From positions 806,001-870,000 of the forward strand of contig CP012155.1 in assembly GCA_001602415.1 (NCBI GenBank): DNA of 64,000 nucleotides, given 5' to 3'. Made by a program: the position numbers and the translations under genes. Source of the DNA: Bacteroidetes bacterium UKL13-3 (GTDB lineage: Bacteria; Bacteroidota; Bacteroidia; UKL13-3). This document shows, piece by piece, positions 45,736-49,976 of this stretch. How positions within the stretch are numbered: the first letter of the stretch is position 1; the number at the start of each line of letters is the position of its first letter. The notes under the pieces were generated by a model that worked only from the letters and a program-made list of their open reading frames with translations, had not been told where the DNA came from and searched no databases.

Positions 45736-46113
45736 TTAAAGCGCAATTCTTTTAAAGCCGTTTTTTAATAAGGTAACATTGAAGTTTATTAATAGCCCAA
45801 GGCGTACTCCCAATAATTTCATGTAAGTAATAACCTGAGCATGATGAACAGGATGTATAGCTTCAACTGATTTTGTTTCAATGATAATGGTGTTCTCCAC
45901 AACTAAATCCATTCGATATCCGCAATCCAATTTAACATCTTTATATACCAATGGTAAAGGGACTTCGCGTTGCACATATAAACCTCTTTGCAATAATTCA
46001 AATTGAAGGCATGTAACGTAGGCAGATTCAAGCAACCCGGGACCTAGTTGTTTGTGCACTTCAAGTGCTGACTCAAAAATAATGGTACTTTTTTCTCGTT
46101 CGATGATTTCCAT
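45736..46113 (-). CDS. GxxExxY family protein (PD-(D/E)XK-like), copy a
   Basis: 125 residues. The name-giving motif G-x-x-E-x-x-Y is at residues 26-32 (GLLESAY), preceded by EVHKQLGPG. Asp68 in YRMDLVV with Glu78 and Lys80 in IIETKSV fit a PD-(D/E)XK nuclease core, and HHAQVITYMKLL and GLLINFN close the domain. The family is widespread in Bacteroidota with no settled function. It interrupts the NeuB-NeuC-NeuA order and is flanked by imperfect inverted repeats. A second member lies at 63345-63731. Confidence 0.92.
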   Translation of the reverse strand: MEIIEREKSTIIFESALEVHKQLGPGLLESAYVTCLQFELLQRGLYVQREVPLPLVYKDVKLDCGYRMDLVVENTIIIETKSVEAIHPVHHAQVITYMKLLGVRLGLLINFNVTLLKNGFKRIAL

Positions 46114-47193: not shown

Positions 47194-47295
47194 TTAGCTG
47201 AGTATCTCAATATGCGGTTGTTCCAAAATTTTGGATTGCTGCTCCTTGAATTCTTTTTTTGAAAAAATTACAAACTGAATTTTTTTGTGTGGCAT
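47194..47295 (-). pseudogene. 3' fragment of a duplicated regulator gene
   Basis: This 33-codon frame reads HKKIQFVIFSKKEFK followed by SKILEQPHIEILS and a stop. It matches the end of the regulator at 48715-49242 (HKKIRFVIFSEDEFK, SKILEQPHIEILN) over its whole length with no gap, at about 75 percent DNA identity by eye. It begins with an ATG by chance or by reuse. The rest of the regulator is missing. The AlbA gene lies between the fragment and the full copy. It could be translated as a small protein, but a relic is more likely. Confidence 0.75.
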
Positions 47296-47315
47296 AGTTT
47301 CGTGATGAAACGTAT

Positions 47316-48704
47316 TTAGTTGTTAATCTCCCAACTACCCGACTTATCGGTTCCCTTGCGTTTAACTTTTTGTTGCACCTTCAACTGTTCAATATCTCTG
47401 GCTATGGTTCTTCGTGTCACCGAGAGGTTGCTGGCAATCTCAGTTGTGGTAATATTCGGATTTTTATGCATGAGTTGCAGAATGAGTTGCTTTCTTTTTT
47501 CTGTGACATTTTCTGTGACATTTTCTGTGACATTTTCTGTGACATTTTCTGTGACATTTTCTGTGACATTTTCTGTGACATTTTCTGTGACATGCTTTTT
47601 TTGCAATTGCTTCAATTCAATTTCAATGCCTCCGGCAAATTCACGTACTTTAGCTTTTGGCAGTTTTGCATTTGTGAGTGCGTCATTTATTTTGGCAATA
47701 CCTCGTCCCCATACTTCAATAAAGCCGGCTTTAAAAAATACTTCGGCAATACGCTTGTTACGAGGACGTGAAGGATGTTTTCCCAACAGTTTTTTGATTG
47801 ATAAATCACTCGGGAGTTTTCCTTCATTCCATAATATCAGCTTATTGTTGTATACGCTTAGCTGGATTGATGTTCCAGTATAATCCTTGTGAACGATAGC
47901 ATTGAGTATAGCTTCGCGAAGTGCGTCTTCCGGGTATTCGAGGGTTTCAATGCGCTGTAAGCCGTTATAGCTGATAGGGGATGTAAGGTATTTGGCGCGA
48001 AGTATATCCATTACCTGATCTGCCATTTGTAAGATATTGCCTTCTACTACATCTTGAAACAGAAGATCTGAATCATCCTTTCCAAATCTGCCTATTTTAA
48101 AAGAAGCATTGGCGAAGAATCGTTGTGGCTTTTTACCGAATATAAGTAAGGCAGCATGGGTTATTTTTCCTTCCGGAGAAATGAGGTTGAGCTTTTCTAA
48201 AACAGATTTAGGTGTTTCTGATTTAGACTGGAGTGGTAATCGTTTACTTCCTATTGCATACCTGGTAAAGTATTGGATGGCTAAAGGGTCTATATCTTTT
48301 AGGGTTGCAGCATTTACAGGAAGTTCGTCCCATGATTTACCGTTTTTGGTCAGGAGGAATTGTTGCAATAAAGCCCCTTTAAGTTCTTGTTTGGTACTTC
48401 CAGAGCGGTAATAGTATCCACCTTGAAAGGAGATTGGAACACTACTGGGTTGTACAATAATTTCGATATAATGTAATTTATTCTTGCGAAGCAAATTAAC
48501 TTCGGGCATGATGCCTAACTGTTGAATGATTTTGTTTGGAAGATCATCAAGCAATTTTTTTGATTCAGAAATACCTGTTACCACACCTTTATCGTTAATA
48601 CCGATATATAATTTTCCTCCTTTCGCATTTGCAAATGCACAAATCCATTTAAGGTATTCGTCACGCCAAGATAATTTATATTCGATGCTTTGTGATTCAG
48701 GCAT
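47316..48704 (-). CDS. AlbA_2-domain ATP-binding protein with winged helix
   Basis: 462 residues. N-terminal AlbA_2 (Schlafen-like) domain with ESQSIEYKLSWRDEYLKWICAFANAKGG and IGINDKGVVTGI, a GHKL-type ATP-binding C-terminal part (EYPEDALREAILNAIVHKDYT, GRGIAKIND), then a run of eight VTE(N) repeats, and a final helix-turn-helix (TTEIASNLSVTRRTIARDIEQLK). Proteins like this are common accessory genes, thought to bind nucleic acid and act as regulators, but the targets are unknown. It lies between the locus regulator and a copy of that regulator's 3' end. The tandem-repeat linker may vary in length between strains. Confidence 0.9.
   Translation of the reverse strand: MPESQSIEYKLSWRDEYLKWICAFANAKGGKLYIGINDKGVVTGISESKKLLDDLPNKIIQQLGIMPEVNLLRKNKLHYIEIIVQPSSVPISFQGGYYYRSGSTKQELKGALLQQFLLTKNGKSWDELPVNAATLKDIDPLAIQYFTRYAIGSKRLPLQSKSETPKSVLEKLNLISPEGKITHAALLIFGKKPQRFFANASFKIGRFGKDDSDLLFQDVVEGNILQMADQVMDILRAKYLTSPISYNGLQRIETLEYPEDALREAILNAIVHKDYTGTSIQLSVYNNKLILWNEGKLPSDLSIKKLLGKHPSRPRNKRIAEVFFKAGFIEVWGRGIAKINDALTNAKLPKAKVREFAGGIEIELKQLQKKHVTENVTENVTENVTENVTENVTENVTENVTEKRKQLILQLMHKNPNITTTEIASNLSVTRRTIARDIEQLKVQQKVKRKGTDKSGSWEINN
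47501..47592. repeat. 12-bp tandem repeat inside the AlbA gene
   Basis: Seven perfect copies of CTGTGACATTTT (plus strand) and a degenerate eighth. On the minus strand they encode VTEN repeats joining the ATPase part to the winged helix (about residues 371-402). Being 12 bp, gain or loss of units keeps the frame and only alters linker length. Confidence 0.97.
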
Positions 48705-48714
48705 ACTCGTTTGA

Positions 48715-49242
48715 CTAATTCAAAATTTCAATATGCGGTTGTTCCAAAATTTTCGATTTCTGGATTTTGAATTCATCTTCGGAGAAAATAACAAACCGGA
48801 TTTTTTTATGAATGATTTTCTCTGCTTTTTCGGTTAAATTAAGCAGATAGGTTTTGTTAATATCACCAATAAAAATCAAATCAATAATGGGGTTGTCGAG
48901 TCCTTTGGCCAATTCACCAACCAGATACACCGCCTCTACATTACCCAGTTTCCCAATTACTTGTTCAACAATTTTATCCAACCCGGTATACTTCATCAGA
49001 ATATTTTGAATATCCGAAAACATGGGATGTAAGGTGTTGGCTGTAAATATTTTTTTGTTTCCACTCAACGAAGTGCGCAACAGTTTTGCATCTTCAAACT
49101 TATTTAATTCTAACCGAATGGAGTTGGTGCTTTCACCAAACTCGCTTTCTAAGTTCCGCAAATAGGACGATGTTTTGCTGTTCAGGAAAAACTTAAGCAA
49201 CAGTTTTATTCTGGTTTTAGATGTGATGAGGGTGTCTAGCAA
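48715..49242 (-). CDS. Winged-helix / nucleotidyltransferase-fold transcriptional regulator
   Basis: 175 residues. The first 75 form a winged helix (SKTRIKLLLKFFLNSKTSSYLRNLESEFGESTNSIRLELNKFEDAKLL). The second part looks like a reduced nucleotidyltransferase fold (AVYLVGELAKGLDNPIIDLIFIG), where the usual GSxARG-type catalytic residues are altered (GELAKG). Proteins of this build often sit next to polysaccharide loci in Bacteroidota and are taken as regulators. It lies downstream of the UpxY-type gene after a 224-base gap that holds a hairpin. Its 3' end exists in a second copy at 47194-47295. Confidence 0.85.
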   Translation of the reverse strand: MLDTLITSKTRIKLLLKFFLNSKTSSYLRNLESEFGESTNSIRLELNKFEDAKLLRTSLSGNKKIFTANTLHPMFSDIQNILMKYTGLDKIVEQVIGKLGNVEAVYLVGELAKGLDNPIIDLIFIGDINKTYLLNLTEKAEKIIHKKIRFVIFSEDEFKIQKSKILEQPHIEILN

Positions 49243-49466: not shown

Positions 49467-49976
49467 CTAATATGGTTTTAGGTGCTGGGCTGGAATCTTA
49501 AGCAAAAGATGAGTTCCGAGTTGTACTATATTTATGGCAAAATACCGATTGCCATGCTGCTCGGCAATAATTCCTCTGTAACCTTGGAGCGGGCCGGCAA
49601 TTACCTCAATAAGTTGGTTCACTTCAAACTGTTCGGATGAGGTTTGCAGTTCGTCAAAGTGGGATAATGAGAGTTGAATGGCGTTAATAATTTCGGCTCT
49701 TATAGGTGAGAGTTCTTTTCCAATTCTTATGAATTTAACTACACCTAATGTGCTCAAAATAGCTACATGTTCTTTTTCATAATGAATATTTACAAATACA
49801 TAAGATTTAAACAATGGTTCTTCTACTTTCTTTTTACGATCGCTCCATTGTTTGATGGTAGTTTGTAAGGGTAAATAAACGTCAAATCCTTTGTTTGTAA
49901 GTAATTGTGCTACTTTTTTTTCGGCACGGGGATTGGTATAAATGGCATACCATTTTTTCTGATTAAAAACTTTCAT
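49467..49976 (-). CDS. UpxY-family NusG-like transcription antiterminator
   Basis: 169 residues. The N-terminal NGN domain is clear (KKWYAIYTNPRAEKKVAQLLTNKGFDVYLPL, then EPLFKSYVFVNI) and the C-terminal part has a KOW-like turn (IEVIAGPLQGYRGIIAE). In Bacteroides, UpxY proteins are encoded near the start of capsule operons and let RNA polymerase read through the long operon. Here it follows six upstream genes (wza to the ArnC-like transferase), so the 50-kb part downstream may be what it controls. No conserved leader element was recognised. Confidence 0.93.
   Translation of the reverse strand: MKVFNQKKWYAIYTNPRAEKKVAQLLTNKGFDVYLPLQTTIKQWSDRKKKVEEPLFKSYVFVNIHYEKEHVAILSTLGVVKFIRIGKELSPIRAEIINAIQLSLSHFDELQTSSEQFEVNQLIEVIAGPLQGYRGIIAEQHGNRYFAINIVQLGTHLLLKIPAQHLKPY

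Follow-up and report, generated by a model that had tools for sequence, protein, structure and literature searches.

Elements integrate into the 3′ ends of genes, including those of tRNAs and icd; the 3′ end of the target remains whole, and another such end comes to lie on the far side of the insertion. Homology-facilitated illegitimate recombination (HFIR), as described in transformation and conjugation, yields one homologous and one illegitimate junction, with approximately 1 kb of foreign DNA placed beside the homologous stretch (PMC3240628 and works cited there). The left-over 3′ ends found behind new cargo at T6SS and Rhs loci have been attributed to the same route; in T6SS effector displacement and Rhs C-terminal displacement, a new 3′ part and its cargo stand ahead of the old 3′ end of the same gene (PMC5361080). 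Restriction-modification genes, according to Nobusato et al. (2000, as cited in PMC1643837 and PMC3031569), insert with long target duplication, such that a gene without mobility functions lies between long direct repeats of its target.

The locus described here was analysed within a 64,000-nucleotide stretch of the Bacteroidetes bacterium UKL13-3 genome (hereafter the window, whose numbering is used throughout). On the minus strand the genes are ordered glycosyltransferase, UpxY, regulator (49242–48715), AlbA gene (48704–47316), a short fragment (47295–47194), neuB (47181–46177), GxxExxY, neuC, and cytidylyltransferase. The UpxY-family transcription antiterminator upstream of the regulator (49467–49976) scores 137.8 bits against NF033644 (cut-off 100), and neuB, the native downstream neighbour of the regulator, encodes a sugar acid synthase (Pfam NeuB, E = 1.7e-71). 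The GxxExxY gene (45736–46113) is flanked by motifs resembling ACGAAGATCACGG and CCGTGTTCTCCCGTGG; it occupies the same neuB/neuC position in two relatives (L034 and L037), and none was found at that position in two others (L035 and L036).

The regulator is a full-length ORF of 175 residues with 77–86% amino acid identity to its orthologues in genus g14. Pfam and NCBIfam searches assigned it to no family; its N-terminal part is winged-helix-like, a label given in a preliminary description of this DNA from the appearance of the sequence, and residues 89–166 weakly match a putative nucleotidyltransferase (PDB 2rff; E = 0.0034). The PADLOC candidate defence family PDC-M05A also matches the regulator (E = 3.4e-22), yet here it heads a surface-sugar operon. 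The AlbA gene, which starts 10 nt after the regulator stop codon, encodes 462 residues with SLFN_AlbA_2, HATPase_c_4 (RecG C-terminal type), and HTH domains (Pfam). The linker between the latter two is encoded by an in-frame 12-bp tandem repeat (47497–47593, minus strand; VTEN, 8.1 perfect copies), a length-variable stretch in which a change of length would keep the frame.

A second copy of the terminal 31–33 codons of the regulator is present at 47194–47295, in frame and with approximately 77% DNA identity, as a diverged orphan counterpart of the 3′ end of the complete gene (48715–48816; both minus strand). The pair was found in the repeat search as direct repeat D2 (47204–47289 and 48725–48810; 86 nt, 81%, ungapped), and comparison of the two flanks of the AlbA gene with each other by blastn gives E = 8.8e-20. 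Over 31 codons (HKK...S/N), 72 of 93 nucleotides are identical (77%), whilst over 33 codons the identity is 75% at the nucleotide and 76% at the amino acid level; the coordinates and the approximately 75% identity given in the preliminary description were thus right, as was its placing of the AlbA gene in the gap between the repeats. The fragment has no indels and no internal stops, carries its own TAA (47194–47196), and ends 12 nt before neuB. Its homology to the regulator begins at around 47292, and a search of the 3.24-Mb genome with the regulator gave no other second match (E <= 0.001). The AlbA gene is the only ORF between the repeats; the absence of a recombinase gene there argues against an integrase-type insertion.

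In five g14 relatives of the same family with the same neu-type cluster (L032, L034, L035, L036, and L037) the regulator lies directly before neuB, with stop and start codons overlapping as TAATG or TGATG, and none of the five has an AlbA gene at this junction. The regulator ORF likewise overlaps that of neuB in L039 (genus g11). Because the relatives have this plain, touching regulator–neuB junction, the AlbA gene and the fragment constitute the inserted piece; as expected of HFIR, it lies beside a stretch homologous to the recipient, at a site that is empty in relatives. Presence of the same AlbA gene and fragment throughout the relatives, which the preliminary description had named as refuting its reading, was not encountered; the arrangement was found in this genome only. 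The gene order following the single regulator differs elsewhere, with a WbqC-like gene in L033 and KpsF and KdsA in L038 (gene names assigned by reading the sequences); the regulator thus sits where a conserved head gives way to sugar genes that are exchangeable.

The pattern of divergence between the two tails informs on the origin of the fragment. Of the differences across the 31 codons, 5 fall on first, 3 on second, and 13 on third positions, a significant bias towards the third (13/31 compared with 8/62 for first and second positions together; Fisher p = 0.003). Within codons for equal residues, third positions differ in 10 of 25 cases between the tails, and in 9 of 24 between the regulator and that of L032, which belongs to another genus. 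This third-position-biased, genus-level divergence suggests that both ends were under selection while diverging. When unconstrained decay from the start was simulated, a mean of 21–23 first- and second-position differences arose, with eight or fewer in 0.5–1.5% of matched runs (P = 0.005–0.015), a poor fit on which a neutral in-place duplicate was rejected. With both copies constrained, the observed value was ordinary at w = 0.1–0.2 (P 0.75 and 0.27, respectively) but became less usual at w = 0.3 (P 0.10). We consider, with moderate confidence and on a signal from 31 codons only, that most of the tail divergence arose while both ends sat in working regulators. On this basis the fragment is most plausibly the terminal part of a xenologous, once-functional diverged regulator that was later truncated. 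The same 31 codons point to left-over and complete ends from different lineages, as expected of HFIR.

Capture by HFIR, with the end of the resident regulator left over, is in our view the best explanation of the locus, with a probability of approximately 0.6, because an intact gene, its cargo, and a diverged left-over end match the pattern of one homologous and one illegitimate junction. In the proposed mechanism, the ancestral order would have been UpxY, regulator, and neuB, with the latter two touching, and the incoming DNA, from a related bacterium, would have carried the 3′ part of a regulator followed by the AlbA gene. A homologous crossover would have taken place within or upstream of the resident regulator, and beyond the AlbA gene an illegitimate join would have been made into the resident regulator at approximately codon 143. 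This would have produced an intact regulator, perhaps a hybrid, followed by the AlbA gene and, ahead of neuB, a remnant consisting of the final 31–33 codons of the resident gene. When the regulator was compared along its length with seven g14 orthologues, its identity to them showed no clear mosaic breakpoint. The preliminary description had offered, as one of two origins, arrival of the AlbA gene together with a diverged regulator end; the association of the gene with such an end is supported, with either tail a possible newcomer.

Comparison with the described systems reveals differences as well as likenesses. We infer HFIR as the route, like the donor, the identity of the resident tail, and the present non-function of the remnant, from the finished product, in contrast to the HFIR described in transformation and conjugation. 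At T6SS and Rhs loci the cargo is part of a toxin–immunity module and arrays grow, whereas here one unrelated gene has entered a capsule-type locus in what appears to be a single event. Relative to elements that integrate at gene 3′ ends, the present case differs in that a single gene, without an integrase, lies between the repeats, although one homologue of the AlbA gene (in L122, described below) sits at a tRNA-Arg gene exactly as such elements do.

The main rival to HFIR is entry of the AlbA gene by a transposition-like event of its own, with a target duplication of approximately 100 bp whose copies diverged later; we regard this as unlikely. The pattern is already established for restriction-modification genes and, as there, a gene without mobility functions lies between long direct repeats of a target. 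The copies in those cases are near-identical according to the citing papers, whereas here they are diverged with a coding-type pattern, and the cargo is an AlbA gene. Target duplication gives identical copies of which the second is unconstrained, whereas the second copy here has diverged as if under purifying selection, and the decay of a spare, initially identical copy fits its differences poorly (P = 0.005–0.015, as above). Also against target duplication are the lack of a mobility gene between the repeats and the variation of the repeats around AlbA genes in position and in length (29–442 bp).

Support for this rival also comes from a survey of 60 AlbA homologues, from which the gene of the window and one near-duplicate were left out, as were four with broken or cut reading frames (L059, L156, L172, and L178). 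Flanking direct repeats (E <= 1e-4) were commoner at AlbA homologues than at pooled control ORFs (13/60 and 17/414, respectively; p = 1.3e-5), as were tight repeats, in which neither copy is more than 150 nt from the gene (7/60 and 4/414; p = 8e-5). Amongst the controls, repeats were found at 5/277 sugar-locus ORFs (0/277 tight; a few of these loci themselves contain AlbA genes), at 9/77 ORFs near AlbA genes (3/77 tight, one being an AIPR-like gene), and at 3/60 Fic genes (1/60 tight). Relative to the Fic genes alone the excess is modest (p = 0.014 for any repeat; p = 0.06 for tight repeats), and since three of the 77 ORFs near AlbA genes are also tightly flanked, the footprint is not unique to AlbA. 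At the protein level, a fragment of a neighbour's end was present on the far side for 5/60 AlbA homologues compared with 3/353 control ORFs (p = 0.002), and low complexity seems to account for the three matches amongst the controls. The repeats in L149, L168, and L177 are distant or of low complexity and, although counted as any repeat, were not taken for traces of insertion; in L147 the 79-bp repeat resembles a dispersed intergenic repeat. An AIPR-like ORF (L198:10063–11947; genome G134) lies between 39-bp direct repeats, 8–9 nt from the ends of the ORF, indicating that footprints of this kind also occur around other accessory genes.

The nearest AlbA homologues, at 60–61% identity, are found in G051 (same family) and in G134 (another family). 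That of G051 (L039:6819–8201) is found in the same sugar locus but at the opposite flank of the regulator, where it separates that gene from UpxY and is followed by a short S23-like ORF; no fragment of the regulator or of UpxY is present nearby. In G034 (L122:6602–8135), an AlbA homologue follows a complete tRNA-Arg(CCG) gene, and beyond the homologue the 3′ half of this tRNA recurs as a 56-bp stretch with 98% identity, a repeat that also favours target duplication. The related genomes G035 and G036 carry the tRNA once and lack an AlbA gene at this place; the sequence that they share with G034 continues 16–32 bases beyond the second tRNA copy, as expected if that copy is the old right-hand junction. 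This case would fit either HFIR or long target duplication. In L131, L159, L165, L171, and L173 a short piece of the start of the next gene precedes the AlbA homologue. The duplicated starts belong to hsdR-like (L131), restriction-like (L159), DNA methylase (L165), and mnmA (L173) genes, as named from reading the sequences, and the two hsdR-like starts in L131 differ solely by synonymous changes, a footprint like that of the present locus and in favour of HFIR. In G188 (L129:1025–3472), an entire four-helix-bundle (S23-like) gene is present on either side of the AlbA homologue, the two copies being 93% identical over 442 bp. A piece of an hsdR-like start immediately precedes this homologue, and 7-bp tandem repeats (ATTAACC) occur in the vicinity.

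Taken with the survey, these cases suggest that AlbA genes may be frequent cargo of such capture events. A stronger reading, which we put forward tentatively and think doubtful, is that genes of the AlbA_2–HATPase_c_4–HTH type are a preferred single-gene cargo that repeatedly enters at gene ends (a tRNA 3′ half, a regulator 3′ end, and hsdR-like, methylase, and mnmA starts), leaving a second, often diverged, end of the target. We found no paper on the mobility of AlbA_2 genes in Bacteroidetes.

The other origin proposed in the preliminary description, a tandem duplication of the regulator in place, after which the AlbA gene would have replaced all of the second copy but the final 31 codons, is disfavoured, since the tails differ chiefly at synonymous sites and about as much as regulators do across genera. 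The fragment is nearest to the resident regulator (76% at the amino acid level) and the genome has no second regulator of another kind, both in favour of such a duplication; a long-lived functional pair, recently truncated, would also be compatible with the substitution pattern, though neutral decay would not (P = 0.005–0.015). Nevertheless, separate duplication, selected divergence, insertion, and deletion would all be required, and no tandem regulators are found in relatives, which together make this origin improbable.

It is very unlikely that the fragment is itself functional, as a short ORF through which translational coupling to neuB would have survived the insertion. It is open and in frame, with an ATG near its start (MPHKKIQF...) and neuB close behind, and the relatives couple the regulator and neuB through TAATG; however, 31 codons would remain open with P ~0.34 even under full neutral decay, and no second example of the fragment is found in relatives. 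Its RNA structure is not above that of shuffled sequences (z = -0.83), and an RNA element within it was rejected on this value. Coupling to neuB need not compete with capture, of which it could be a by-product.

A homologous-recombination site at which cargo is repeatedly swapped beside the regulator, as first conceived for this locus, is the least probable reading and was rejected: the gene downstream of the regulator does vary among relatives (neuB, WbqC-like, KpsF/KdsA, and others), but this variation sits behind a single regulator, relatives with the same cluster have a plain regulator–neuB junction, and amongst the 67 loci searched (approximately 60 distinct, seven duplicated), each with its own regulator and its own tail, 0 of the ~60 distinct loci had a credible second regulator end or other cargo between two ends. 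Tails ending in PH[IL]E[IV]L are confined to this genome and g14, most other relatives having LLLWSK-like endings, and a plasmid collection contained only distant homologues of the regulator (<28% identity).

The event at this locus is an ordinary gene capture with a readable scar, not a reusable swap site, and the cassette-exchange idea can be dropped here. The capture by HFIR proposed above is of an already known kind; it illustrates that a single accessory gene can be taken up at the start of a surface-sugar operon while both the regulator and the next gene stay unbroken, and that such an event can be read from the left-over end. The wider lead is the apparent excess of footprints around AlbA genes. 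Should these genes indeed be a preferred cargo, they would represent a class of mobile solitary genes without a mobility gene of their own; if the footprint excess holds, AlbA genes would serve to trace gene capture in Bacteroidota and would exemplify how genes may move when no mobility gene accompanies them.
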